Shown here one piece after another: positions 1-39,024 of a stretch of DNA of 39,654 bases (positions are counted from its first letter, which is position 1; each line of letters starts with the position of its first letter). The notes under the pieces are model-generated. The model made no database searches. It was not told the DNA's origin and was given only the letters and a program-made list of their open reading frames with translations. This DNA comes from a virus. The position numbers and the translations under genes were made by a program. Where the stretch lies: the IMG/VR virus record IMGVR_UViG_3300048919_000154, positions 1-39,654 of that record, one strand, 5' to 3'.

Positions 1-117
1 TATGCGGATGGACTCACATATGCGAGCAATAATAATCAAATGTTTTATAGGCTTCTTACTGGAACGGTAAACAATACAACAGAAGTTATGGTTAATGGCA
101 TTATTCCAAAGGCTTAA
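1..117 (+). pseudogene. Silent tail-fibre C-terminal cassette D (partial, runs off left edge)
   Basis: Frame 1 is open from the first base to a TAA at 115-117 and encodes the last 38 residues of some protein, ending in NGIIPKA. No start codon or ribosome site is visible because the 5' side lies outside the window. It stops inside the 13-bp sequence TAAATGATCATTA (115-127), as the plus-strand cassette at 2774-3112 does, and it faces a minus-strand cassette exactly as that one does. I infer that it is a stored alternative fibre C-terminus. It could instead be the end of an expressed plus-strand fibre gene to the left. Confidence 0.5.
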
Positions 118-127
118 ATGATCATTA
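115..127. repeat. Shared stop-codon palindrome, left copy
   Basis: TAAATGATCATTA contains the perfect palindrome AATGATCATT. Read on the plus strand it gives the stop codon of cassette D, and on the minus strand the stop codon of cassette C. An identical 13-mer with the same arrangement lies at 3110-3122. Confidence 0.8.
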
Positions 128-362
128 AGGAATATAAAACAGAACTTCTATATCGACTGCCTTGTTTGCATAAAGAACAGGAGTCCCTGAAATGCTTACA
201 ATTCTAATCGTATTACTTTGATAGGAAGCCAGCACACTATAATTCAAAACCGATAATATATAGGCATTACCCATTGCGCAGCTAATATGTCCATATTGAT
301 CAGTGGTACCGACCACATGCTTAATTATAAACTTGCTGTTCCACGAAGCTAAATTGCTATTT
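125..362 (-). pseudogene. Silent tail-fibre C-terminal cassette C
   Basis: The minus-strand frame is open from about 375 to a TAA at 125-127. From the repeat onward it begins Asn-Ser-Asn-Leu-Ala-Ser, matching in frame the NSNLA stretch of the expressed fibre gene (residues 208-212 of 3120-4013), and then runs 78 residues to the stop. There is no plausible start or ribosome site: a TAA in frame lies just upstream of the repeat. It therefore reads as a promoterless, startless 3' cassette. The amino-acid sequence after NSNLAS differs completely from the other cassettes, as expected for alternative receptor-binding ends. Fusion to the fibre N-terminus would give a 285-residue protein. The fold is not recognised. 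Confidence 0.6.
350..362 (-). repeat. 13-bp crossover-type repeat, copy 1
   Basis: TAAATTGCTATTT on the plus strand (AAATAGCAATTTA on the minus). It matches 3381-3393 in the same orientation and 2815-2827 in inverse orientation. With two flanking bases the match to the expressed fibre gene is 15 bp (348-362 and 3379-3393). In the minus-strand cassette it encodes NSNL in the same frame as the expressed gene. Confidence 0.75.
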
Positions 363-428: not shown

Positions 429-746
429 ATGCCATCGTTTGGTATAGGGATAAATCCGTACAGGCAGAACAACGGCAGCGTCCGGGGAAATACATATCCT
501 ATTGCTTGCATGGCTTGGTATGCTCCAGACCGTGCCCCTGTGCCGCTTATGCTTAAGTTTGAGGGCCACGATGGGACCATAGAGACAGTAAGCGGTATAA
601 AGGTAATAAGTACCGCCAGCAAGAACTATGACGGTTCTGGAGTCTATGAGTATGCCTGTGAGGCTGTGATAGGTGGCATAAGATATGTATTTAAGCTAAT
701 CTTTTATGTGATGAGCTGCAAGTGGGTCATGGTCTTGCAGCAATAA
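429..746 (+). CDS. Small prophage protein under SOS-type control
   Basis: A 105-residue protein of unknown function with no clear signal peptide; the C-terminal third (from about residue 80) is hydrophobic and aromatic. Its ATG is preceded by a strong GGAGGTGG ribosome site at good distance and by a promoter with a perfect LexA-type box. It runs opposite to the whole late operon and converges on the endolysin gene, sharing a hairpin terminator with it (750-779). The position next to lysis genes, with a private damage-responsive promoter, suggests a role at prophage induction or in the lysogen, but nothing in the sequence names that role. Confidence 0.8.
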   Translation: MPSFGIGINPYRQNNGSVRGNTYPIACMAWYAPDRAPVPLMLKFEGHDGTIETVSGIKVISTASKNYDGSGVYEYACEAVIGGIRYVFKLIFYVMSCKWVMVLQQ

Positions 747-787: not shown

Positions 788-1651
788 TTATATTGCCAAA
801 CTTTTATAAATTAATGCGCCGTTCTGGTCCGGTGTAAGTGTTAAAGACTCGGTTACCATTTTGCCATCAGTGTCTACGGCGTAAACCTTTCCGGAATTCT
901 CCACAAGCTGAGACTGGCACATAGCCCCGTCTGGGCCAAGATAATACCATGCCTCATGGTACCGGTACCATGTGTTTGTAACCATAATCCCGGCACCGTT
1001 TAACCAGTACCATTTACCATCAACCTGTACCCAGTCATTACAGACCGGTAGACCGGTATCTCCGTTAAAGTACATCCAACCATCTGCAACCTGCGCCCAG
1101 CCAGATTTCTTTTCCTCTGTCAGAACAATGTTCCAATCTGGTCGACCATATCCCATAATTTTCTCATAAGATAAACTGTAAGATTTCTGGCAGACTCCGC
1201 CGCCGTTCTCGATCACGCCACTTGCTCCGGAGGTATTACCCTCTACGGTTTTAACCTTGGTGCTCGTGACCTCAATGACAATGCCTGTATGGTAAGCACG
1301 AACACCGTTAGTAAAAAACACCACGTCTCCGGGTTCTGGCTTCGAATACCAACGCCCGGCCTTTTTAAACTGATTTACGCCAGTAGGACAATAGTGGTAC
1401 AAATCACCGCCCAGAAGCTTCTTAGCGGTTTCTAAGCCAAGCATCTGTACAAATACCTCTGACACGTAAATTGCGCACCACGGCTGCCCCTGTAGGTTTT
1501 GTCCGGTATGTAATTTGTAATCTCTGGCAAAGCAAGTAAAATTATTGTTTCCGGCATTAGCTGTGAAATGGTCCAGATTTTTATTATCCTTTTTTTCCAG
1601 ATATCCAGTCCATGACTTTGCTTTTTCGATTAAGTCTTTTACAATATTCAT
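788..1651 (-). CDS. Endolysin: CHAP-type peptidoglycan hydrolase with cell-wall-binding repeats
   Basis: A 287-residue lysin. The N-terminal 150 residues fit the CHAP fold: a catalytic Cys in PWCAIYVS (Cys59), a His in YHTGIVIEV (His121) and the EGN motif (about 137-139). The C-terminal half has tryptophan/tyrosine-rich tandem repeats (GWAQVADGWMYF, DWVQVDGKWYWL, and so on) typical of choline- or glucan-binding repeats that anchor the enzyme to the wall. No signal peptide is seen, consistent with export through the holin just upstream (2137-1721). A hairpin terminator (1671-1697) separates the two, so it may be made at a lower level. The start has GGAGG about 10 bases upstream. Confidence 0.93.
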   Translation of the reverse strand: MNIVKDLIEKAKSWTGYLEKKDNKNLDHFTANAGNNNFTCFARDYKLHTGQNLQGQPWCAIYVSEVFVQMLGLETAKKLLGGDLYHYCPTGVNQFKKAGRWYSKPEPGDVVFFTNGVRAYHTGIVIEVTSTKVKTVEGNTSGASGVIENGGGVCQKSYSLSYEKIMGYGRPDWNIVLTEEKKSGWAQVADGWMYFNGDTGLPVCNDWVQVDGKWYWLNGAGIMVTNTWYRYHEAWYYLGPDGAMCQSQLVENSGKVYAVDTDGKMVTESLTLTPDQNGALIYKSLAI

Positions 1652-1720: not shown

Positions 1721-2137
1721 TTATTCAGTTACAGCTTTCTTTTTCAGCACATCAATAGCCTTTGTAAGAACACCAGGAAGCGGCAGCCCCATAAGCCCAG
1801 CATTTTCCACGATTGATATCAGCTCATTGGCCATAAAACCAATAATCACGGCATCCCTTATGTAATTGGTTCCGATAGCAAGATCCAGGCGGTAAGCAAT
1901 CAGGACAAAGAGTAGAGTCATGCTCTTTCTGCAAAGCCCCTTCCAGCCGGCTCTTGACTCCAGGGCTCCAGTTTCCGTCTTAGTGCTCTTCTTGAAAATC
2001 CCGGCGACTGCCAGTCCAGAAAAAAAGTCAATCCCCATAAAAAGGAGCAATGTTGCAATACCGGTATCCCAGCCTCCAAATAATGATGCTATAAAGCTCC
2101 CTACCACTCCTGCAGTTGTACATAATGCGTTTTTCAT
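1721..2137 (-). CDS. Holin (Phage_holin_4 / TcdE-like family)
   Basis: About 138 residues with three hydrophobic stretches: GVVGSFIASLFGG, ATLLLFMGIDFFSGLAVAGI and SMTLLFVLIAYRLDLAIG. An IDFFSG(L)-type motif and a basic loop after the second helix (IFKKSTKT) are typical of the phage holin 4 family. It would form the membrane lesions that release the endolysin encoded just downstream. The chosen ATG is 9 bases after GAGG; an ATG two codons upstream and a GTG overlapping the ribosome site are possible. It follows a 43-codon XkdX gene by about 20 bp. Confidence 0.9.
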   Translation of the reverse strand: MKNALCTTAGVVGSFIASLFGGWDTGIATLLLFMGIDFFSGLAVAGIFKKSTKTETGALESRAGWKGLCRKSMTLLFVLIAYRLDLAIGTNYIRDAVIIGFMANELISIVENAGLMGLPLPGVLTKAIDVLKKKAVTE

Positions 2138-2157
2138 TCTCATTTTCCTCACTCTTT

Positions 2158-2735: not shown

Positions 2736-2814
2736 AAATTAATTCCTTTCCGTCCTTTTGGACATAAAAATAAGCCCCGGTATGGGACTGGTTTACAAGT
2801 TTATTTAGTTCTGT
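2728..2814 (-). pseudogene. Possible 3' remnant of a gene abutting the invertible segment
   Basis: Just outside the 14-bp repeat at 2814-2827 the minus strand encodes about 27 residues that read like a normal protein end (AYFYVQKDGKELIYE, then TAA) and overlap the start of the next gene by a few bases, as in a translationally coupled pair. The frame continues through the cassette only as a shadow of the plus-strand fibre coding. It may be the tail of a gene cut off when the invertible unit formed. Weak call. Confidence 0.3.
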
Positions 2815-3112
2815 AAATAGCAATTTAACAGCACTAAATGCAAAGGAAATACAGTTTAAACCGACTGTCAATCCTGTTTTTGCGTCAACAGATAGCTTAG
2901 CAAGCGGTGCGGAGGTAATGTTTACGGTTACATTTGATAAGGCATTCAGTTCTATTCCAGCAGTTACTTTTACGTTACGAGCAAGCGGTGACAATTTTTT
3001 GTCACAGGTGAGCAGTATATCAACTACTGGATTTACAGGATATATACGAAATCCTTTTTCATCATCAAGGCCAGTTAGCGGAGTCAGTTTATGCTATATT
3101 GCAATGTGCTAA
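2774..3112 (+). pseudogene. Silent tail-fibre C-terminal cassette B (inverted)
   Basis: The plus strand is open from just after a TAA at 2771-2773 to a TAA at 3110-3112. The stretch VMFTVTFDKAFSSIPAVTF reads as the C-terminal beta-sandwich of tail fibres (similar to H-type lectin patterns: V-x-F-D-K-x-F-S-x-x-P-x-V). It lies opposite to all neighbouring late genes, has no ribosome site at its first ATG (2918, which is mid-domain) and no promoter. The 14-bp repeat at 2814-2827 encodes NSNL in the same frame as the expressed fibre gene. Inversion of 2814-3394 would fuse it in frame after residue 207, giving a 305-residue fibre. Confidence 0.75.
2814..2827 (+). repeat. 14-bp crossover-type repeat, copy 2 (inverted)
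   Basis: TAAATAGCAATTTA on the plus strand is the exact reverse complement of 3381-3394. The two copies bracket a 581-bp segment (2814-3394) holding two convergent fibre C-termini. The sequence has a partial internal dyad (TAAAT/ATTTA around a 4-bp centre). Confidence 0.8.
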
Positions 3113-3122
3113 ATGATCATTA
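3110..3122. repeat. Shared stop-codon palindrome, right copy
   Basis: The 13-mer TAAATGATCATTA is identical to 115-127. It gives the stop of cassette B on the plus strand (3110-3112) and the stop of the expressed fibre gene on the minus strand (3120-3122). Confidence 0.8.
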
Positions 3123-4013
3123 TTCCCAGTTAGTCCAGCTTTGGGGATTGCCAATAAATCGCCTTGATTTTACTCCTCCTTGTCCCCCAGCACCAGTTAT
3201 AATCTGGGTGTAAAATAACGCTTCGGGGAACTGGATTAATCCGGTAAATTGTGTACCTTCCGGCGCGCCCTGAAACGTATCGGGTGCTGCCATTTGATAA
3301 TATCCTGGGGTTGGAGGCGTGTTGAGGTTACCGGAATACACCCCTTTGTATATGAGTGGGTATTGACCAGTTAATCCAGCTAAATTGCTATTTAACGCAT
3401 TAACTGCTGCCGTCAAGTTTGCTCCTGCTGCCAGCTCCTCACCCATACCAATACGTTCCGTCAGCTTATGAACATAGGCTGCGGAATTTAGCTTTGTAGA
3501 GTCATTGACATCCATATTAGTGATCATTGATTTAAGTACAGCATTTTCGTTCAATCCCATAGTAACTGCTATAGACTTGGATATCTTTCCAAGTGCGGTA
3601 GCAATAGCTTCACCGGCTATGATATTGGCCATCTCTGTGGCTTGTGTGAATAGAGTGTTTACATCAATACTACCGTCTTCAGCCACCTTTATCCCAGCAC
3701 TGCCCTTTACAAGGCCCCTTGTTGCGTTTGTGGCGGTCTTTACGCTTAAAGAGCCATTACTATCCACCTTCGTTGTTTCACCGTCTGGCATGACCGTTCC
3801 CGGTGTGCTTGCCGTAGCTTTACTGGTCCCCTGGGCCGATAACTGCCAATAATTCGTATCCGTTGGTAAAGTTCCAATCGGGGGATCGGTATGTACTGTA
3901 TAGCTGCTGCCATCGTAGGATACCAAATTTAACAACTCATATTTTACATCCGGATCGTATTCCCCCATTGGCACCGTTCCTATTGTGCCATAAATTACTT
4001 CTGTTTCTTCCAT
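3120..4013 (-). CDS. Tail fibre with switchable C-terminus
   Basis: A 297-residue fibre. The N-terminus (about residues 15-65) has the aromatic pattern of a small carbohydrate-binding domain (YELLNLVSYDGSSYTV, then NYWQL). A repetitive Ala/Thr/Asn-rich shaft follows, and the C-terminal 90 residues end in a Trp-rich tip (GNPQSWTNWE) like pyocin-knob-type fibre ends. Residues 208-212 are NSNLA, encoded by the 14-bp repeat (3381-3394) that is also found inverted at 2814-2827; everything after it is likely to be exchangeable. The start ATG overlaps the stop of the preceding fibre gene (TAATG) and has AAAGGAG upstream. Confidence 0.88.
   Translation of the reverse strand: MEETEVIYGTIGTVPMGEYDPDVKYELLNLVSYDGSSYTVHTDPPIGTLPTDTNYWQLSAQGTSKATASTPGTVMPDGETTKVDSNGSLSVKTATNATRGLVKGSAGIKVAEDGSIDVNTLFTQATEMANIIAGEAIATALGKISKSIAVTMGLNENAVLKSMITNMDVNDSTKLNSAAYVHKLTERIGMGEELAAGANLTAAVNALNSNLAGLTGQYPLIYKGVYSGNLNTPPTPGYYQMAAPDTFQGAPEGTQFTGLIQFPEALFYTQIITGAGGQGGVKSRRFIGNPQSWTNWE
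3381..3394 (-). repeat. 14-bp crossover-type repeat, copy 3 (inside the expressed fibre gene)
   Basis: TAAATTGCTATTTA on the plus strand. It is an inverted partner of 2814-2827 and a direct partner (13-15 bp) of 348-362. In the fibre gene it encodes L-N-S-N-L at residues 207-211, the boundary between the constant N-terminus and the variable C-terminus. Confidence 0.8.
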
Positions 4014-8457: not shown

Positions 8458-11400
8458 TTAACTCTGGAAAGCACTTTTTCCAGTATTTCTAAAATATTCT
8501 TCACTCTTTTTCTGAACCAACTTGAAAATCCCTTCGGCATCTGACTCCAGGAATAAGTTCATATCTCCCTTCCCTGCAAAAGCCGGAGCCACTTCCAGCA
8601 TTGCCTCAATGACCGCATTCTTTATTCCTGCTGTGATCTGATCATTGTTAGCAACTGCTGTCCTGTTTCCAATCCGGCCAACAAGCTCCGGCCCGGATTC
8701 TCTGGCCAGGAACATTTCCCCCGTAGTTGGGTATCCACCAGAAGCATACGCTGGAATGTTTGGGATCTTAAAGAGCTGGAAGGATCCACCTTCTACAATG
8801 GTCTGACCAGCAATCTCCACGCTATCCCATTGGAATTTCATCTTTTCATTCAGCCAGTCTATAAACTTATTGAACAGGCTACGAGCTCCTGCAATCGCAT
8901 TACTAAAAGTAGTTGTAAATGCATCCGGGACCTTTGACATAATACCTTTCCATTTCTCCAGAGTAAACCAGGGGCTTACATCTTTATCCCACCAGCCAGT
9001 TATTCCTGACGTCCACTGTCCCACGGTTTCGTCCCAGGTCTTTTTAAGCGAATCCTTTATGGTACTGTATAACTCACTCCATTTCTGAACAGTAAACCAA
9101 GGCGCTATGTAATTGCTATACCACTCATTTAAAGAATTGGTCCATTCTCCAAAAGTATTTTTAAACCCTTCCACAATTCCAAGCAATATAAACGCTCCGT
9201 AAGGCTTCATTTCTGCCGCAGGGGAATGAATACCAAACACACTACATATTCCCTCCACAATCCAGTCCAAAAGGTCCCCAATCGGTTCTAGGAGAAATGC
9301 AAATGCTCCGCTGATTCCTGCGCCAATTCCAAGTACTATATCTGCACCGATTTTATACCATGCCTCATTCCCAGAAAACGCTCTGGTAAAAGCGTCCTCT
9401 GCGGTTTTAAAAAGGCTCTGCATGGTATCCCAGTTAAAGATCTTATCCCCTATGGTTTTAAGAACGCTCTTGCCATCAATCACAATGCCATTAAGCGCAC
9501 CAATAATGGCTCCAACAATCGCACCGGCCAGAGTACCAATGCCAGGAATCGCCGAACCTGCCACAGCTCCAGACACAAGCCCTGCAATCAAGTTGCCTAA
9601 GAACCTTGTCGCCCATTCTGGAAGCAGTTTATCCAGCGCATCATTTAACCACCCAAGGATCTCTACGACAAGCATTTCAAGGGCAGGGCCTCCACTTTGC
9701 ATTATGGCTGGTAGTCCATTAATTGCGGTAAGTAAACCGGAACCAATCTTACTAATAGCTCCGACAAAGGCCGATAGCTTAGGAAAATATACTGCAAAGG
9801 CTTCGCCTAGCGTTCCGGCTCCTCCACTTACAACTGCTATCATTTCTGCAAGATTTTTTACAAGCCCGGTAAGCTTTAGACCTGCAACCAATGCTCCGAT
9901 TGACTTAAGAGTTGTAAACACACTGGATACTGCCTTAAACCCTACAAAAGCAGTAGCAATAACTCCTAGAGCATACCCAATTTTTTCAGCCTGTTCCGGA
10001 TCTATGTTGTTTAAAGCCGTTGCAAGCGCATTCAGGCCTCCAGGCACTACTAAATTAATAAAGTCCGCTCCCACGTCAAGAAGATCATAAAAGAACTTTA
10101 ATAGTCCTTCTCCTACCTTTTCGGCAAACGGTTCCAACGCCTTCCAGAAGTTTTTCAGTGCCTCGTTAATTGCCGGCCAGTTTACCTTTAGAAGAAAGTT
10201 GTTTATTGCATCCGCAAACATGGGAATACCAGTTCCTAACGTCCACTTTCCAAGAGGTACTAAAAATTCATGGTAAAAATCCCTTAGTCCAGTCCATACA
10301 AAAGTCCCAAACTTTGCAAGACCTTCATTCCACAGCCGTTCCAGGGCTACCCTGGTAGGCTCTGCAGCTTCTTTGATAGAGTCAACTAAATCTTTAATCT
10401 TTTGCGCCGATGCTTCCAGGGCCGGATTGACCGTAACACCTGCAAATAGCTCGCCGTTTAGATTTCCTAAGTCCGGAGCTCCACCACCACCGGATCCACC
10501 ATCTTTTCCGCTTCCGGAGCTCAAATTATTCAGTTCGTCGAATCCTGATAACTGTTTATTCATTTCCTTGGCAGACTTAGCAGCGTTTCCAAGGTTATCC
10601 GCTACCGCTCCAGAGGATCCTGCTGCATTTGACATAGTATCAGCTACACCATTACTACTACTTCCTCCGGCATTTCCAAAGAGTGCCGATGTAAAGGCCT
10701 TAAAATAATTTGCCATGGTCTGGAGCTTAGATAATACGATATTAATTACTTGAATAACCGGAGTAAAGGCATTTATAAGTCCCTGGCCTATGGTAGCTTT
10801 TAGCGCATTGAAACGTTCTGTCAAAATACGGACCTGATTCGCCCAGCTATTTGAGGTCCGGGCGAAGTCACCATTGGCAAACCGCAGTTTGTCTTGTACG
10901 AAAGCGTATCGCAGGGCTACTTTTTCCGCCTCTGACATCTTAGCCGTTACTTTTCCGTACCCGTTTTCAAGAGCCCACGCATCAAGGGCCGCCTGGGTCA
11001 TGACCACTCCTAAATCTTTTAAGGTTTCAGTCTCACCTGTAAAGACGCTCTTTAATTTTGTAAATGCCTCTGACTGACTGGTATCATAAAAGGATGCGAC
11101 GTCCGCAGACAGTCCTGTAAGCGTCATACCCATGGTAGCGGCCGATTCCTCGGAAAACTTAAATCCCCTGGCCATGGAGGAAAATACACCGGCATATCGT
11201 TTAGCCGATATTTCCGACATTCCGAATTGCTCTATTGCCTTCTTAGCGAAAGAATCAATCCGACCTTCCATACTGGGGACGGCCTGTTGTATGACGTTAT
11301 CTACCTCTGCCAGCTGCGAACCCAAATCAATACACGACTTTCCAAAGGCTACCAAGGCGGTAATACTGAGGGCTGCTGCCACAACTGCTGCTATCTTTTT

Positions 11401-17596: not shown

Positions 17597-19007
17597 CTAA
17601 AGCACCAGCCTTTTTCTCTCCTGCTGCCTCTTCCTCCTCATCTTCTGGTGGAGTATTACTGCCTAAACCAAAGATTTCCTTTTGCTGCTTTACTGCCTCT
17701 TTTGCTTCCTTATCCACCGCTTTTATTTCATCTTCCAAATTGTCTATGAAAGGAATCTGGGAAAGTAATGTTTTTTTACTGACCTTCCCCCAAAGATTTG
17801 CAACAATCTGACTAATCTCCAGGAGGTTCCGGGGTAAGGCTCTCGTAAAGGTTGGTGCAATACCAGAAATATCTATATTCACAGCTTTACTCTTCTGGAG
17901 CCAACCGGAGAAGAGGCGAATTCTCTTACGCAGTCCCTTCTTGTAGTACCTGGTCTTGATTTTAGTAATGTTTTCCATACCCAGAAGCTTAAACTCCATA
18001 GCAACACCGGAGATATTTCCGCCGAAGCTTTCATCTGTCATACATGGGATATGGGAGAATTTATGTATATCCTGCTCAATGGCTTTCTTAAGGACCTCTA
18101 CTCCAGCCTCATCAAAAGTCCTGGTTAAATATTCCGCCTTTGCATCTGCCGGAAGCTCCATAAGCTTATCTTGCTTTATGCGCTCCTTGGCACTTTTCCC
18201 GTCCTCATCTTTTGCATCAGGATCCCCAAGCATTGCTCCGTATATGGCAAGGATTGAGTCTATAAACTGCTCCTTGTCGGTGATGCGGTCAGACATTAAA
18301 GCGTTGTAAGCATCAATTAGTGGAATCTGCAATTCATAGTCACCGATAGCCAGCTTATTGTTCAAATACTCAACAACGGGGATTTCCTCAAAATAGTGGG
18401 GAACCGGTTCTTCCAGTAATGCCTGTGGTCCGGTGATATCATCAATGTTCAGGACATATTTGTAATGTTCCGTCAGTACCGTAGCTACAAATATGGTTCT
18501 CTTTTTGTCAGAATCGTCCTTCCTGGCATAATAATAGACTGCGAAAAGTTCTTTCTGCTCAATGGTATCATCATATACCATGAAGGTGTTTTCTGGAGAT
18601 AGGCTCTTTATGGTAAGATCCGTTTCTCCTTCTTCTGGATAAATGTACTCATAGGTTCGCCCATATACAGAAAGATCCAGGCCATTGTCCCCATCCGCTT
18701 CATCAGCTCCCGCCTGTTCAAAAGCATCTGTCAGTATGGCTATATCCTCTTTACTTTTATAAGACACCGGGTTTCCGATAAAGTAAGAGCTGGCTGTATC
18801 TGCAATATCCTTCGCATGATTACATACCAGCTTTGTTTTACGACTTTCTGTTAGGATCTTATGCTGACCTTCATAGTATTTCATGAGCTTTTTGAGCCTG
18901 GTCGCTTCCCTACGGTGCTTTACTATCAGGGTGCGAATTGCCTCTTTATCTGGGTTCAGTTCGTCCCAGGATTCCCTTGGCATTGTGTATATGTACGTGG
19001 CTTTCAC
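17589..19007 (-). CDS. Portal protein (SPP1 gp6-like)
   Basis: A 472-residue protein with the SPP1-type portal pattern: KLMKYYEGQHKILTESRKTK and CNHAKDIADTASSYFIGNPVSY near the N-terminus, YGRTYEYIYPEEGETDL, and a C-terminal stem/crown region (GLRKRIRLFSGWL) with an acidic tail (PPEDEEEEAAGEK). Twelve copies would form the DNA gate at the capsid vertex. The start is taken as GTG at 19007; an ATG eight codons later is an alternative. It overlaps the small gene upstream. Confidence 0.93.
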   Translation of the reverse strand: MKATYIYTMPRESWDELNPDKEAIRTLIVKHRREATRLKKLMKYYEGQHKILTESRKTKLVCNHAKDIADTASSYFIGNPVSYKSKEDIAILTDAFEQAGADEADGDNGLDLSVYGRTYEYIYPEEGETDLTIKSLSPENTFMVYDDTIEQKELFAVYYYARKDDSDKKRTIFVATVLTEHYKYVLNIDDITGPQALLEEPVPHYFEEIPVVEYLNNKLAIGDYELQIPLIDAYNALMSDRITDKEQFIDSILAIYGAMLGDPDAKDEDGKSAKERIKQDKLMELPADAKAEYLTRTFDEAGVEVLKKAIEQDIHKFSHIPCMTDESFGGNISGVAMEFKLLGMENITKIKTRYYKKGLRKRIRLFSGWLQKSKAVNIDISGIAPTFTRALPRNLLEISQIVANLWGKVSKKTLLSQIPFIDNLEDEIKAVDKEAKEAVKQQKEIFGLGSNTPPEDEEEEAAGEKKAGALDE

Positions 19008-19221: not shown

Positions 19222-20580
19222 TTAATTGAATCCATATGCAGATTTACTCCGGATCTTTATAGTTTTATTATTGAGTATCGTATAGCAGAAATACCTGACT
19301 GCATCCATAGCATGATCATGTTGCTTTATCGGCTTATCTTCTCCCCGATCCGCAGCCTTTGCGTCCCAGATATAGGAAGCAAATTCTTTAATTGTGTTGA
19401 TGCAGGACTGGCTAAATACTATCTTTCCTGTATTTAGTAGCGTAGAAACCAGCCGGATGCCATCTTCCACGGAATTGTCTGCTTTCATGGTTTTGTATCC
19501 ACGGTTGTTCAGTTCTGTAATAAAGGAAGCTGCTGACGGATCCACAATTATGGCTTTAACTGGCGTTCCTTCCAACCAGTTCTCCAGATCATCTGCATAC
19601 TGAGAATCGGATTTCTGTTTTCCCTTATCCCGGCCAGAATAATAATATTCCCTGGTGCAGTACCACTTCTTGTCAATCCCTTTATTCCATAAGAGAAATA
19701 CCATTGCATTCTGCGTACCGTAATCAATGCTTACATATCGACCACCGTCAATCAACAGCCGGGCAAAGTCCTTAACTTTCTTAACATGCTTATCAACGTC
19801 AAACATGTCATAGATGATGCCCTCAGCCATAGCCCATAAGCCTAAGATATAGCGCTTATAGAAAACTCCACTGTACATGCTCCGGTATCTGGCCTTAATC
19901 TTCTCTGATAGGCTTAAGTTATCTTCCATGGTGAAATGAAGGACAATCAGATTCTTTTTCTTTGCTTCATCAATCCAGTTTGTTTTAAACCAGTGATATG
20001 GTCCATCAGGGTTGCAGTTGAACCAGTACTTTGATCCATCAACGGAACAACGGCCGGTTGCCTGATTAACAAAGGATTCCGGCATTAAGGCCACTTCATC
20101 GAAGAACACACCAGCCAGTGTGATACCCTGGATAAGGTCCTGGGAACGTTCGTCCTTTCCACCAAATATGTAGAAGTAGTTCGTGACCTTTCCTCTGCTG
20201 ATTTCCACCAGATTGTCAGATCTATGATCTACCACACGGTAGCCCCGGCTCTTAAGCATGAGCTTAAGCCAGAAAAGTACGTTTCTCCGGAATGATCCGA
20301 TTGTCTTACCACACATGGCGAAATTCTGACCTTTAAACCGCTGCGTGGCCCACATTATGAATGACAATGACATGCAGACCGTCTTTCCGGATCGGATCGC
20401 TCCATCTGCTATGATTCCATCTTTATCCTTGACTGGAGAAGTATCACACCACCATGTAAGGACTTTCTTTTGTTTGAGGGAGAAGGGTTGAAACTTAAAT
20501 ACCTGTAACTTGGTAGATATGTTGCGGTTCTGCTTTAACTTTTCAATCTTGGCTTTTAGGGCTTTCAGTCTTTCAATCAT
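19222..20580 (-). CDS. terL: Terminase large subunit (PBSX/Terminase_3 type)
   Basis: About 452 residues. The ATPase half has Walker A GAIRSGKT, Walker B VFFDEVAL and a coupling motif near WFNCNPDGP. The nuclease half has VSIDYGTQ, IIVDPSAASF and DHAMDAVRY, giving the RNase H-fold acidic triad. It packages DNA into the procapsid. The start is taken as the ATG at 20580, overlapping the small subunit stop; ATG 20586 is an alternative, and the longer frame from 20613 lacks a ribosome site. The order small, large, portal, MuF is as in SPP1-like packaging modules. Confidence 0.95.
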   Translation of the reverse strand: MIERLKALKAKIEKLKQNRNISTKLQVFKFQPFSLKQKKVLTWWCDTSPVKDKDGIIADGAIRSGKTVCMSLSFIMWATQRFKGQNFAMCGKTIGSFRRNVLFWLKLMLKSRGYRVVDHRSDNLVEISRGKVTNYFYIFGGKDERSQDLIQGITLAGVFFDEVALMPESFVNQATGRCSVDGSKYWFNCNPDGPYHWFKTNWIDEAKKKNLIVLHFTMEDNLSLSEKIKARYRSMYSGVFYKRYILGLWAMAEGIIYDMFDVDKHVKKVKDFARLLIDGGRYVSIDYGTQNAMVFLLWNKGIDKKWYCTREYYYSGRDKGKQKSDSQYADDLENWLEGTPVKAIIVDPSAASFITELNNRGYKTMKADNSVEDGIRLVSTLLNTGKIVFSQSCINTIKEFASYIWDAKAADRGEDKPIKQHDHAMDAVRYFCYTILNNKTIKIRSKSAYGFN

Positions 20581-21337
20581 CCGCATCACCCCAGATCTCG
20601 GCAGCCCCTTCATTCATGGCAGCCATAAAACCATCGTCCTCAATCTCCTGATCTGATGGATCCCGTTTCAGTGTTTCCAGTTCAACCTTCATGATCTCCA
20701 GTTCCAGACGGGCATCATCAAAGCCATAACGATGCAAAGAGTCAATAGCTTTCTGCTTACGGGCCTGAACACGGGTAAGAGCATCTTCCACCGCCTGGAT
20801 CTGTCCCAAGGCTCCTTGATATTCCATAGTGTGCTCTTCTGTGCCAGATTTGTACTTAACTGCTGTCATACCCAAAGTATCATCATTTTTCTGATCGTCA
20901 GCAGTTCGCTTTATATCCTCAATCCGTTTCAGCATTCGCCGTTCCCGGACTGTGAGAAGCTGGATTTCTTGAAGAAGAAGTTGCTTCTTATCAAGCTGGA
21001 TCATACTGATTAGCTGTTTTTCATCTTCCCCCAGGGCATCAAAAAAGAGAGCCTCAAACTCTCCCGTTTTTACCGCGTTTTTATTATTTTCTGGCGCTGA
21101 TCCTCCCCTGTTTCCAGCAGCGTTTTTGTTTCCCTGCTGCCCACCTCGCTTTTTTGCAGCGTTGCGTTTTCCATTCTGCAACGTTGCATTTGGTTCTCCA
21201 TCCCATTTGTAACGGTTTTTCCAGCTTCGTACCGTTCCTGCGGATACACCGAAATTCTCCGCAATCTCAATAAGTTTCTTACCAGACAGATACAACGTCT
21301 TTGCCTGTTCTGCCTGACTGTTTGGCGCTCTAGCCAA
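20573..21337 (-). CDS. terS: Terminase small subunit
   Basis: A 254-residue protein. The N-terminal 50 residues form a helix-turn-helix (AKTLYLSGKKLIEIAENFGVSAGTVRSWKNRYKWDG), followed by an Asn/Gly/Lys-rich linker and long helices (ELEIMKVELETLKRD) for oligomerisation. This is the YfbU/PBSX-type small terminase architecture. It begins with TTG after GAGGTGGTGAGG. It is the first gene of the late operon, downstream of a terminator and presumed late promoter region. Confidence 0.9.
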   Translation of the reverse strand: MARAPNSQAEQAKTLYLSGKKLIEIAENFGVSAGTVRSWKNRYKWDGEPNATLQNGKRNAAKKRGGQQGNKNAAGNRGGSAPENNKNAVKTGEFEALFFDALGEDEKQLISMIQLDKKQLLLQEIQLLTVRERRMLKRIEDIKRTADDQKNDDTLGMTAVKYKSGTEEHTMEYQGALGQIQAVEDALTRVQARKQKAIDSLHRYGFDDARLELEIMKVELETLKRDPSDQEIEDDGFMAAMNEGAAEIWGDADD

Positions 21338-21505
21338 GCCTCACCACCTCTTAATCGTGTTTGTTTTTGAGATTAATAAAATAAGCTACTGACATTTACT
21401 GTCCGCAGCTATAATATGTTATGAGTACAGAAAAAGGCCCCCGTAATTGGGAGCCTTATTATTAAACTTCTGCTAATATCATAATACAACTTTTTATGTG
21501 ACATG
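21338..21505 (-). promoter_or_regulatory. Late operon leader region
   Basis: A gap of 168 bp between the late regulator gene and terS. It holds an intrinsic terminator (21431-21455), then AT-rich sequence containing TATTAT and TTATTTTATTAATC blocks on the minus strand that could be an activator-dependent late promoter. I do not see a clear -35, consistent with dependence on the ArpU/DUF1492-type protein encoded just upstream. A cos or pac site may also lie here, but none can be read from sequence alone. Confidence 0.4.
21431..21455 (-). terminator. Terminator separating early and late transcription
   Basis: On the minus strand GGCTCCC pairs with GGGGGCC (21449-21455 with 21436-21442) across a 6-base loop, followed by TTTTTC. 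It ends transcription through the late regulator gene before the terminase operon. Confidence 0.85.
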
Positions 21506-21931
21506 TCAATTATTTTTTTTGATGCTTTCAAAAGGCATCTTTTTTAATGCTTTTCCGTGGATTCTCAATACTTGTCTATAGGATTTCCCGGTTTTACTGG
21601 CAATTATATCCCAGCTCATTAGATTTATGTATTTATATTTCAATACCCGTTTCTCATTCTTATCGTTTATCATATTTATATATTTTACAATCATTTTATG
21701 TAAACTATTTTTTTTATTTAAAAGTATTGTGATTTTACTTTCAAGCTTTTCCATTTGCACTGCATAATCTGACAGATCAGATACACCTGTTCCGTGTGGC
21801 ATTCCATCACTCATACTACTAGGCGAAATTTTATTTATTATTAACTCCTCCTTTTTCTCACGTAATGTAATAAGCTCTAATACTATTCTACGATATGAAT
21901 TCAAAAATTCTCTTTTTTCATTCTCCCTCAT
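21506..21931 (-). CDS. Late transcription regulator (ArpU / DUF1492, sigma-70 region 4-like)
   Basis: A 141-residue protein. The mid-region motif SMSDGMPHGTGVSDLSDYAVQ is the signature of the ArpU/DUF1492 phage proteins. The C-terminus has a helix-turn-helix like sigma region 4 (YKYINLMSWDIIASKTGKSY, RQVLRIHGKALKKM). Such proteins sit directly before terminase genes and are thought to switch on late transcription. GAGAGGAG precedes the ATG. It is followed by the terminator at 21431-21455, so it belongs to the early/middle transcript. Confidence 0.88.
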   Translation of the reverse strand: MRENEKREFLNSYRRIVLELITLREKKEELIINKISPSSMSDGMPHGTGVSDLSDYAVQMEKLESKITILLNKKNSLHKMIVKYINMINDKNEKRVLKYKYINLMSWDIIASKTGKSYRQVLRIHGKALKKMPFESIKKNN

Positions 21932-21942
21932 ATAACTCCTCT

Positions 21943-22953
21943 CTATGCTACATATTTATTAAATGCCGCCTGAATGTCTTCCTGACAGATAGTAAGATAG
22001 CATTGCCTTGTAGTATTAGTAGACGCATGTCCTAAAATCTCGGAAATATATTCCAAACTACAGCCGTTTCTATGAAGAGTTGTTGCCAGTGTTTTCCTAA
22101 ATAGGTGAACAGTACAATGTTTTTGTATCCCTGCTCTTTTAGCTATATTTTTCAAGATACTTTCATAACTGGTATGTCCTAGTCGATTGTATGGTTTTCT
22201 TGTTCCTACAAAGAGTGCCGGATCATTATCTACCCTACTCTCCAAATAATCTTTCAGATGTTTGGAAGCTTTGGCTGATAAATAGACAGTTCTAAATTTT
22301 CTTGCTTTGTGACCAATTATATTAACCGTACCCGTCTGAAAATTAACATCATCACGGTTAAGTGTAACCAGCTCGCCTACTCTAACCCCTGTTGATAGCA
22401 AAAAATCGACTAGCGCCAATTCTCTTGTTGTTTTACAATTATCTCTCAGTAACTCTTTCTCATGTTCAGTGAGAAACTCCTTTTTTATTGGATCTGGCTT
22501 TATTCCCTTTATTGCTCTTACTGGATTTTTTTGAATTAATCCTTCTTCTGCTGCCCAGCCATAGAATGCAGACAAAAAACGCTTTGTTCCTGCCAATGTT
22601 GTTGAACTAACCTTGTTTTGGGTTTTATATATGGCCAAATAATACTTTATATCATCTGCTGTAACATCCTTATAGTTTTTGTTAAGATATTCAAGCATTT
22701 TCCAAACTGTCCTGACATATTGTTCTATACTTCTCTCAGAAAGATTCTCTAGCTTTTTATGTGATATAAATAGTTTGATAATATATTCATTATTATCATT
22801 CTTTGTGGAAAGTTGTGTACATTCTTCATGAAACGAAATGTTACGGCTCCAAACCCGTAGATTAATTTCAAGCATTTTTAATTGATCGTTTGTAAGCTCC
22901 CTCTGCTCTGCCATTAATATATCGTTAATAAATCTCTCTTTCAAATTCTGCAT
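21943..22953 (-). CDS. Tyrosine recombinase (XerC/D-like integrase family)
   Basis: About 336 residues: an N-terminal SAM-like core-binding domain (SERSIEQYVRTVWKMLEYLNK) and a catalytic domain with Arg in TGVRVGEL, Lys in HKARKFRT, His-x-x-Arg in HLFRKTLATTL, His in LGHASTNTT and the nucleophile Tyr in RQCYLTI. All six key positions are present, so it should be active. The ATG at 22953 is chosen because AGAAGGAG lies just before it. The phage also has a serine integrase at the other end, so this enzyme is unlikely to be the integrase. Possible jobs are dimer resolution of replicating DNA, dif-like recombination or inversion of the fibre cassettes. Confidence 0.9.
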   Translation of the reverse strand: MQNLKERFINDILMAEQRELTNDQLKMLEINLRVWSRNISFHEECTQLSTKNDNNEYIIKLFISHKKLENLSERSIEQYVRTVWKMLEYLNKNYKDVTADDIKYYLAIYKTQNKVSSTTLAGTKRFLSAFYGWAAEEGLIQKNPVRAIKGIKPDPIKKEFLTEHEKELLRDNCKTTRELALVDFLLSTGVRVGELVTLNRDDVNFQTGTVNIIGHKARKFRTVYLSAKASKHLKDYLESRVDNDPALFVGTRKPYNRLGHTSYESILKNIAKRAGIQKHCTVHLFRKTLATTLHRNGCSLEYISEILGHASTNTTRQCYLTICQEDIQAAFNKYVA

Positions 22954-22970
22954 AATTTTCTCCTTCTCCA

Positions 22971-22999
22971 TTGCTTAAGGACTAATGTTATGCTATAAT
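22971..22999 (+). promoter_or_regulatory. Plus-strand promoter overlapping the 5' end of the recombinase gene
   Basis: -35 TTGCTT (22971-22976), 17-bp spacer, perfect -10 TATAAT (22994-22999). It points away from the recombinase gene into a 170-bp gap that has no plus-strand gene but ends in a hairpin with a T-rich tail. Confidence 0.7.
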
Positions 23000-37142: not shown

Positions 37143-38534
37143 ATGCAAAACTCCCAAGATAAGCTTTTACACGTAGCGGTATATATTCGTGTTTCTTCTG
37201 ACGAACAAGCCGAACGTGGCGATTCTATACGCGATCAAAAAGAACGCGGCATTAAATATATTAATGATCATAAAAATATGATTATTCAAGACGTATACCT
37301 TGATGATGGTGTATCCGGGCAAAAAATTGATCGTGATGATTTTACCCGTCTTATTAATAACGTAAAGGATGGCCTTGTGGATCTAATCATCTTTACTAAA
37401 CTTGATCGCTGGTTCCGTAGTTTGAGGCATTATCTTAATACCCAGGCAATCCTAGAAAAGTATAATGCCGCCTGGACCGCTATCGACCAACCTTATTTTG
37501 ATACTTCTACCCCCTACGGCCGGGCTTTTGTTGCTCAATCCATGACTTGGGCTGAATTAGAGGCACAGAACGGAGGATTGAGGGTAGCAGACGTATTCCG
37601 CTCTAAAGTAGCGCATGGTGAGGTTATAACCGGGAAAGTACCAAGGGGTTATAAGATCCAGGACAAAAAAATGGTTTTGTCAGAAGAAGCACCTGCGATT
37701 CACGATTGTATCATGCACTTTTTGCATCATCATTCATTGAATCAAACAGTTCTATATATGAAGGACAAATATGGTATTGTTATGACAATTCAAAATTTTA
37801 GGCAAGCTTTATTAAAAAACGAAAAGCTTATAGGTCGTTATCGTGGTAACACTAACTACTGTCCTCGATTAATTTCAGATGAAGACTTTCAGGAAATACA
37901 ACGTATTCTAAATTATAATAGTAATATAAAATCTAATCAGAGATACCCCTACATTTTTTCTGGGTTACTGGTTTGCAATGAATGTGGGTACAAAATGGGT
38001 GGAGGCCAGATCAATGTACTTTCCAAAAGAAACAATGGAGACTCCACACGTTATAAGTATCCTGCTTATGAGTGCAAGAAATATCGCGCTTACAAAGAAT
38101 GCGATAACGGGGGAGAGATACGAGAGATACGAATAGAAGAATATTTACTCAAACATGTACGTGATCATTTTAATTCTTATGTATCTGATTTTGAAACGAA
38201 TAGTAAAAGTATTATTGATAACAGAGCTAAGAAAAATCAAATACGCAAGAAAATTGAAAGATTAAAAGATCTATACCTCAATGAAGCAATTACTATAGAA
38301 GAGTTTAAGACTGATCGCATTAAATTTGAAGAACAATTAGCAGAATTACCGGATGTCGTACAGCCAAATCAAGATATAAAAGCACTAAAAAATATACTAG
38401 ATACAGACTTTGAAAGTATGTATTTACGGCTTGACAATGAACAAAAGCGTATTTTCTGGAGATCAATTATTAAAGAAATACGAGTTAGTAAGAGTATAAA
38501 TAGGAATCGTGAATACACAATTGAATTCATTTAA
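37143..38534 (+). CDS. int: Large serine integrase
   Basis: A 463-residue large serine recombinase. The N-terminal catalytic domain has YIRVSSDEQAERGDSI, with Ser18 as nucleophile, and LVDLIIFTKLDRWFRSLRH. A recombinase domain follows (GKVPRGYKI), then the zinc ribbon (LVCNECGYKMGGG and a second pair at YECKKYRAYKEC). A coiled-coil segment (KKNQIRKKIERLKDLYLNEA) controls integration versus excision. It ends 12 bp before the feoB fragment, so it is the terminal phage gene and evidently made the insertion. GGAGATG lies before the ATG. No excision factor is identified with certainty. Confidence 0.96.
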   Translation: MQNSQDKLLHVAVYIRVSSDEQAERGDSIRDQKERGIKYINDHKNMIIQDVYLDDGVSGQKIDRDDFTRLINNVKDGLVDLIIFTKLDRWFRSLRHYLNTQAILEKYNAAWTAIDQPYFDTSTPYGRAFVAQSMTWAELEAQNGGLRVADVFRSKVAHGEVITGKVPRGYKIQDKKMVLSEEAPAIHDCIMHFLHHHSLNQTVLYMKDKYGIVMTIQNFRQALLKNEKLIGRYRGNTNYCPRLISDEDFQEIQRILNYNSNIKSNQRYPYIFSGLLVCNECGYKMGGGQINVLSKRNNGDSTRYKYPAYECKKYRAYKECDNGGEIREIRIEEYLLKHVRDHFNSYVSDFETNSKSIIDNRAKKNQIRKKIERLKDLYLNEAITIEEFKTDRIKFEEQLAELPDVVQPNQDIKALKNILDTDFESMYLRLDNEQKRIFWRSIIKEIRVSKSINRNREYTIEFI

Positions 38535-38560: not shown

Positions 38561-38719
38561 CGTGTGCTGGTTCATCCCCGTAAGCTGATTAAACACCGTA
38601 CTCTTCCCTACGTTGGGATTTCCAGCCAGTGCAATTACCTTATCACTATCCTTACGTTTCTTAATTTCAAGCCCCAGATCCACAGATTTGATACCAACAG
38701 AGTCTCTGCTTAATCCCAT
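38546..38719 (-). pseudogene. feoB: FeoB ferrous iron transporter, N-terminal fragment cut by the prophage
   Basis: 57 codons: [20 protein letters not shown], then the P-loop GNPNVGKST (33-41) and [13 protein letters not shown], after which two foreign codons lead to a stop. Intact FeoB has about 600-700 residues (G domain plus membrane permease). The ATG overlaps the feoA stop region, as in a normal feoAB operon. The remainder should lie beyond attL, left of the window. While the prophage is integrated, this copy cannot make a working transporter. Confidence 0.92.
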
Positions 38720-39024
38720 GCATCTTCCTCCTGGGTGACCGCCGCTGCCGCCACTTCTTCTTCAAAACGGCGTCTTCCCATATCCTCTTGTTCCAGGCGT
38801 ACCAGCACCCGCCCTGCGTCTTCCCTTCGCAGGGCAATCACTGCACCTCTGATTAAGAATGCTGTAGGATCGCCCAACGGACTTTTTCCAAGGCACTCCA
38901 CAACCGTGCCTTCAATCAGACCGATATCCTGCAGACGCCTTCTCATATCGTCGTAAGCAGACAGCTTAGCTATGACACCCCTTTGCCCTCTTTTTAAATC
39001 TGCCATACATGCCTTTTCCTTCAT
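38710..39024 (-). CDS. feoA: FeoA, SH3-like partner of the FeoB iron transporter
   Basis: A 104-residue protein with the FeoA fold: [60 protein letters not shown]. The L-x-D-I-G-L-x-x-G and P-L-G-D-P motifs are diagnostic. It assists FeoB in ferrous iron uptake. A charged C-terminal extension (about 25 residues) is unusual. GGAGG precedes the ATG. It is divergent from a DtxR-family regulator, a common arrangement for iron control. Confidence 0.93.

Follow-up and report, generated by a model that had tools for sequence, protein, structure and literature searches.

The DNA analysed here, hereafter the window, comprises all 39,654 nucleotides of the IMG/VR virus record IMGVR_UViG_3300048919_000154, and the coordinates of its features are collected in Table 1. 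From the left end, its elements follow one another in the order segment B, an open reading frame at 429–746, an amidase-like gene, a holin-like gene, a 147-aa gene, a terminator, segment A and the tail-fibre gene. The open reading frame at 429–746 (plus strand, 105 aa) gave no family match, and among the fetched loci (which carry L numbers) its homologs occur only in the segment-bearing L087, L110 and L125, near the phage lysis end. At the right end of the window, a large serine recombinase is followed by host-type feoA and MntR/DtxR-like regulator genes, so that the right prophage boundary is expected between 38534 and 38710, and the serine recombinase at this chromosomal edge is expected to occupy the probable integrase position.

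In segment A, two 14-bp copies of TAAATAGCAATTTA, one the exact reverse complement of the other, enclose two convergent fibre C-termini, and each copy encodes N-S-N-L when read in the frame of the fibre. Of the two C-termini, the one on the minus strand is fused to the constant part of the fibre via the right-hand copy, while the plus-strand one is silent, lacks a start codon and has a frame that extends only 14 open codons ahead of the repeat; both stop inside the central near-palindrome. Since the outer sites sit in coding sequence, a flip gives an in-frame fusion, and computed inversion of 2815–3393 yields an open fibre of 305 aa (MEETEV...ALNSNLTALNAKEIQ...CYIAMC), made up of 207 constant and 98 new residues. 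All of these points, namely the exact repeats at 2814–2827 and 3381–3394, their common NSNL frame, the two convergent C-termini, the lack of a start on the plus-strand one, the 305-residue product and the shared position of the stops, had been proposed in an earlier sequence-only reading and are borne out. That reading had treated the unit as isolated, and had missed the third site, the second segment at 1–362, the recombinase at 21943–22971 and the terminator at 2789–2773.

Table 1. Features of the window, with positions numbered from its first nucleotide.
Feature	Position	Strand	Remarks
Segment B, other half-cassette	1–117	+	ends ...GIIPKA; truncated by contig start
Segment B, central palindrome	115–128		TAAATGATCATTAA
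Segment B, silent half-cassette	125–361	-	78 aa, ends ...VLFYIP; NSNL opening at site, stop in palindrome
Third outer site	350–362	-	exact 13-bp core; right end of segment B
Amidase-like gene	788–1651		named by eye from sequence
Holin-like gene	1721–2152		named by eye from sequence
147-aa gene	2292–2735
Intrinsic-terminator-like hairpin	2773–2789	-	directly outside segment A; usable in either orientation
Outer site, distal	2814–2827	+	TAAATAGCAATTTA
Silent half-cassette, segment A	2816–3112	+	98 aa; H-type lectin domain (Pfam PF09458)
Central near-palindrome, segment A	3110–3122		TAAATGATCATTA; stop codons of both halves; candidate inner site TAAAT-GATC-ATTTA
Expressed half-cassette, segment A	3120–3392	-	residues 208–297, ends ...SWTNWE; fibre frame continues; homologous half in L022
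Outer site, proximal	3381–3394	-	TAAATAGCAATTTA in fibre sense
Constant fibre N-terminal part	3394–4013	-	residues 1–207; PHROG tail fibre matches; L003 and L022 near-identical
Fibre gene	4013–3120	-	297 aa; fused through right-hand repeat copy
Tyrosine recombinase, PsrA/XerA-like	21943–22971	-	342 aa; Pfam Phage_integrase, E 1.7e-32
Large serine recombinase	37143–38534		463 aa; zinc-ribbon domain; beside host-type feoA and metal-regulator genes
Host-type feoA	38710–39024
MntR/DtxR-like regulator, host-type	39208 on

A repeat pair alone is no evidence of such a system, because about one is expected per window by chance: in windows simulated to match its dinucleotide composition, exact 13-bp inverted-repeat pairs 300–1500 bp apart numbered 1.05 on average and 5 at most. 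A third exact copy of the 13-bp site is expected 0.008 times per window, and it is solely this third copy, together with the finding that other phages repeat the anatomy, that rules out a chance repeat. Segment B (1–362, its left end lying beyond the contig) is built to the same plan as segment A, and the third site with its own pair of C-termini means that the window has at least two segments; four C-termini are thus available, in 2814–3394 and 1–362. The minus-strand half of segment B has only 4 open codons upstream, and its plus-strand half is homologous both to the half that is silent in L022 (91% over 126 bp, starting at the inner palindrome) and to one half of L035.

The same anatomy is shared by other phages that are not related to one another. 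The site consensus TAAATAGCAATTTAGC, derived from 35 sites, is invariant at 11 of its 13 core positions, and a scan of IMG/VR with it gave 49 stretches; inverted site pairs occur in about 20 of those contigs, as well as in L003, L022 and the protein-found L034 and L035. Their spacing is about 440–870 bp, a few being longer, and the common plan is a site, a half-cassette, in most cases the palindrome AAATGATCATTT or a near variant, a second half-cassette and an inverted site. The halves start with N-S-N-L (rarely S-S-N-L) and end at or beside the palindrome. Typically, one half extends a long upstream reading frame, while the other is preceded by 0–30 open codons, and some segments are entirely silent spares. 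The exact 16-mer site was found in 1 of 397 Lachnospiraceae genomes, that of L022 alone, so the shufflon is recurrent but not common. In L003, an acyltransferase-like gene, possibly a host-surface-altering cargo, lies between the outer sites of the fibre locus (8948–10033).

Comparison of these loci also indicates how the halves are distributed among phages. The alignment of fibre C-termini that the sequence-only reading had proposed as a check places the border between constant and variable parts exactly at NSNL, the fibres of L003 and L022 (the latter from a Hungatella sp. genome) being near-identical to that of the window through ALNSNL and unrelated thereafter. Between L104 and L107, the flanks are 100% identical (300 and 247 bp) and the segments wholly different, with homology resuming at the outer sites. 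Several halves that one phage expresses are silent in a second phage, such as those shared by L084 and L092 (99.8% over 410 bp), L082 and L104 (100% over 108 bp), L087 and L110 (93%), L034 and L022 (85%) and L095 and L079 (84%), and the silent lectin half of the window has an expressed homolog in L036, with 82% amino acid identity. As regards the proposed comparison of relatives for both orientations, the same half is expressed or silent in different phages, but none of the compared contigs showed one phage in both orientations, and no near-identical relative of the window was found among them. INPHARED held no close relatives by fibre protein, a viral-contig scan with the 78-aa half of segment B gave no relatives, and the site string had no match in the literature searched.

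With regard to function, the silent half of segment A matches the H-type lectin family PF09458 above the cut-off (E 2.3e-6). Its predicted model is of low-to-medium confidence (mean pLDDT 64, core about 67–83), and the best fold match by foldseek is Helix pomatia agglutinin, at probability 1.0 but E 0.03; matches to CheY were weak (E 0.008) and were taken as chance. The AlphaFold model of the whole fibre (pLDDT 35) was unusable, and the other half-cassettes searched mostly gave no family match. Receptor binding is suggested by the position of the halves and by this one lectin domain, and flipping would probably change the receptor recognized.

The candidate invertase is the tyrosine recombinase encoded at 21943–22971, immediately upstream of the packaging genes and 18.5 kb from segment A. 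Its residues R197, K222, H289, R292, H315 and Y325 are invariant, leaving the catalytic set R-K-H-R-H-Y intact. XerA/XerD-like models span residues 67–339, with no lambda-type arm domain reported; the NCBIfam XerA model scores 207 bits, slightly under its cut-off of 220, and identity to two enzymes from hsdS loci is 36%. Relatives of the enzyme were obtained by the site scan and in records of faecal phages. In L104, L110, L114 and L116 they adjoin the segments, their genes being separated from an outer site by between some tens of bp and about 290 bp, while a viral-contig scan with the window recombinase itself gave no relatives. A profile was built from nine such enzymes, with E <= 1e-100 taken to define a strong member. 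Of the 28 segment contigs, 12 had a PsrA/XerA-like member of this strength, as against none of 20 controls with a single chance site (Fisher p 5e-4), and after removal of the profile's own members the comparison still gave 7/23 against 0/20 (p 0.01); several segment contigs have no PsrA/XerA-like recombinase, many of them being fragments. In the tree, the window enzyme clusters with six other enzymes of fibre-segment phages and with that of L129 (support 100/99), whereas other fibre-type enzymes (L104/L116, L110/L092 and L114) branch elsewhere, near the hsdS enzymes. Recombinases that have diverged thus accompany one and the same AGCA site, as might be expected if cassettes have to remain exchangeable. 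The prophage L022 (Hungatella sp. UBA7603) has an intact-looking segment and no PsrA-like recombinase, only a 26%-identical integrase; its segment may be inactive, or may depend on a host enzyme. In Terrisporobacter phage TPELB_ph1 (L132), a relative of the window recombinase group, CDS0023 (17645–18640), is annotated as 'integrase' and immediately follows the final tail-block gene, and the phage has another integrase of 527 aa at 20529–22112. CDS0023 may be an invertase; sites were looked for next to it and not found.

Taken together, these features are very probably those of a tail-fibre shufflon of a temperate phage, with invertible C-terminal cassettes and a phage-encoded tyrosine recombinase. 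Segment 2814–3394 would hold two receptor-binding C-termini back to back, and recombination between its inverted outer sites would flip it and join the other C-terminus to residues 1–207, the terminator outside the segment ending transcription in either state. The second segment, at 1–362 past the lysis genes, would act as a spare. The enzyme encoded at 21943–22971 is the likely invertase, because the separate large serine recombinase at the chromosomal edge would serve as integrase, and we infer that it acts on these sites and that the segment flips in the living phage. The shufflon-like invertible C-terminus of the sequence-only reading thus stands as the best explanation, with strong comparative support, although the likely enzyme is a tyrosine recombinase and not a serine enzyme of the Gin/Cin type.

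Other explanations have to be weighed against the shufflon. The switch may once have been active and now be locked in this phage, or rely on a recombinase supplied by the host; the 18.5 kb between segment and recombinase and the lack of a close relative of the enzyme in L022 point in this direction, as does L036, which is plainly a locked relic, its 5' site being damaged, one of its halves gone and a PsrA-like enzyme absent. In the window, however, the sites are perfect, both halves are open and all six catalytic residues are kept, so that we regard a locked switch as unlikely. It is more improbable still that the cassettes never undergo programmed inversion within a phage and have only been traded between phages, in the course of evolution, by recombination at short sequences that these have in common. 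The movement of halves among unrelated fibres fits such an exchange, as does the fact that no phage was seen in two orientations, but it does not account for inverted sites around two convergent in-frame halves in about 20 phages, nor for the one specific recombinase family that accompanies the segments, and a startless silent half that is kept open requires a route to expression. Finally, the serine recombinase that the phage also encodes can hardly be a Gin/Cin-like invertase, since it is of the large type, with a zinc-ribbon domain and an integrase position by feoA and metal-regulator genes, and recombinases of its family are absent from all four other phage records searched.

Under the shufflon reading, the central palindrome deserves separate consideration. 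TAAAT-GATC-ATTTA combines the arms of the outer site with a self-complementary core, is present in 17 of 17 compared segments with at most two bases changed, and is retained even in segments where the stop codon of a half falls outside it. In six comparisons (window/L022, window/L035, L022/L035, L079/L095, L108/L113 and window/L036), the homology between half-cassettes starts or stops at most a few bases from the palindrome, and the ...IIPKA half has three different partners, in the window, L022 and L035. In L036, where the lectin half is expressed, the 5' site is short of 3 bp, and an outer site, TAAAT-TGCT-ATTTA, stands in the place of the palindrome; the flank beyond it is of the same terminator type, with a similar hairpin visible. 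This arrangement is as expected from a crossover between an inner and an outer site. We tentatively raise the possibility of a two-tier combinatorial shufflon, in which outer sites TAAAT-AGCA-ATTTA would flip segments and the palindromes would be directionless sites, allowing the same recombinase to join half-cassettes in new pairs, whether these come from different segments or from different phages. The simplest alternative, that the palindrome is nothing but a compact double stop, leaves unexplained its retention where the stops lie elsewhere. If the two-tier model is true, half-cassettes would serve as a common currency for phages with recombinases of only about 35% identity.

The recombinase also connects these segments with type I restriction loci. 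In Streptococcus pneumoniae, PsrA inverts hsdS repeats in vitro (PMC7096588). Relatives of the window enzyme are found in L126, L127 and L128 at inverted or repeated TAAAT-GATA-ATTTA sites, which encode NDNL in hsdS-like frames; in hsdS loci the related recombinases lie between the inverted copies. In L129, the gap between such a recombinase and a TAAAT-AATA-ATTTG site is 11 bp. The records of L126, L127 and L128 (MT835621, MT838471 and MT839915) contain hsdS-like type I restriction inversion loci with TAAATGATAATTTA sites and an adjacent PsrA-like recombinase; they were deposited as bacteriophage, and some may be bacterial DNA. At 1950–2514 of L129 (MT839831), a third site class, TAAATAATAATTTG (NNNL), accompanies two convergent fibre-like halves. 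The arms TAAAT/ATTTA look like the binding half-sites of the enzyme, and the core like an overlap that needs to match. The form TAAAT-N4-ATTTA is common to fibre segments and hsdS inversion loci, which looks new. Compared with the PsrA/CreX/XerA-like hsdS inversion systems (PMC7096588), the tyrosine recombinase is related, and the L126–L128 sites have the same arms and encode NDNL in frame in hsdS. These systems differ in their target, hsdS, and in the site core, GATA instead of AGCA, and the central GATC palindrome was not found in them.

Among phage systems, the nearest counterparts are the Rin shufflons, described in dnaJ2 prophages of Bifidobacterium (PMC6109161) and in clade 1 prophages of Eggerthella lenta (PMC8778435); there, rin adjoins the cassettes, and its sites have 11 bp (TTCCCTAACCC) or 8 bp (ttccgtat). 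As in Rin systems, a phage XerD-like tyrosine invertase distinct from the integrase would act on very short sites between a constant N-terminus and variable C-termini; the armless XerD-like recombinase separate from the integrase is found in the window, and H-type lectin C-termini are shared with E. lenta. The site here, in contrast, is a 14-bp dyad, TAAATAGCAATTTA, that encodes NSNL, the rix sequence was not matched, and the halves are paired convergently around a palindrome. A recombinase flanking the cassettes, as in Rin, is found in L104, L110, L114 and L116, but in the window it lies 18.5 kb away. The R64 shufflon also has segments with two convergent C-terminal frames, a tyrosine recombinase (Rci) and spare segments, and acts through 19-bp sfx sites on pilV, the conjugative pilus adhesin. 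The window is like it in frames, recombinase type and spare segments, and differs in that the target is a phage tail fibre. Inversion by Mu Gin, P1 Cin and p15B Min likewise switches a tail-fibre C-terminus; these are small serine invertases, whereas the only serine recombinase of the window is the large one of 463 aa. A constant N-terminus, alternative C-termini in inverted segments and short in-frame sites, the marks of a tail-fibre shufflon, are all present. We take the tail-fibre inversion cassette to be real and closest in logic to Rin, from which it differs by its sites, paired halves, spare segment and hsdS-type recombinase.

What looks new is the portability of cassettes between unrelated phages, and a central palindrome that resembles a second, directionless re-pairing site. 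The phase variation of tail fibres and that of hsdS specificity are tied together by a single recombinase family and a common site grammar (AAT-xxx-AAT-TTA, N-x-N-L). The signature of sites and anatomy is easily searched and could be used to find phages able to switch their receptor-binding tips, and the exchange of halves described above suggests that fibre tips circulate as standard cassettes among unrelated phages.
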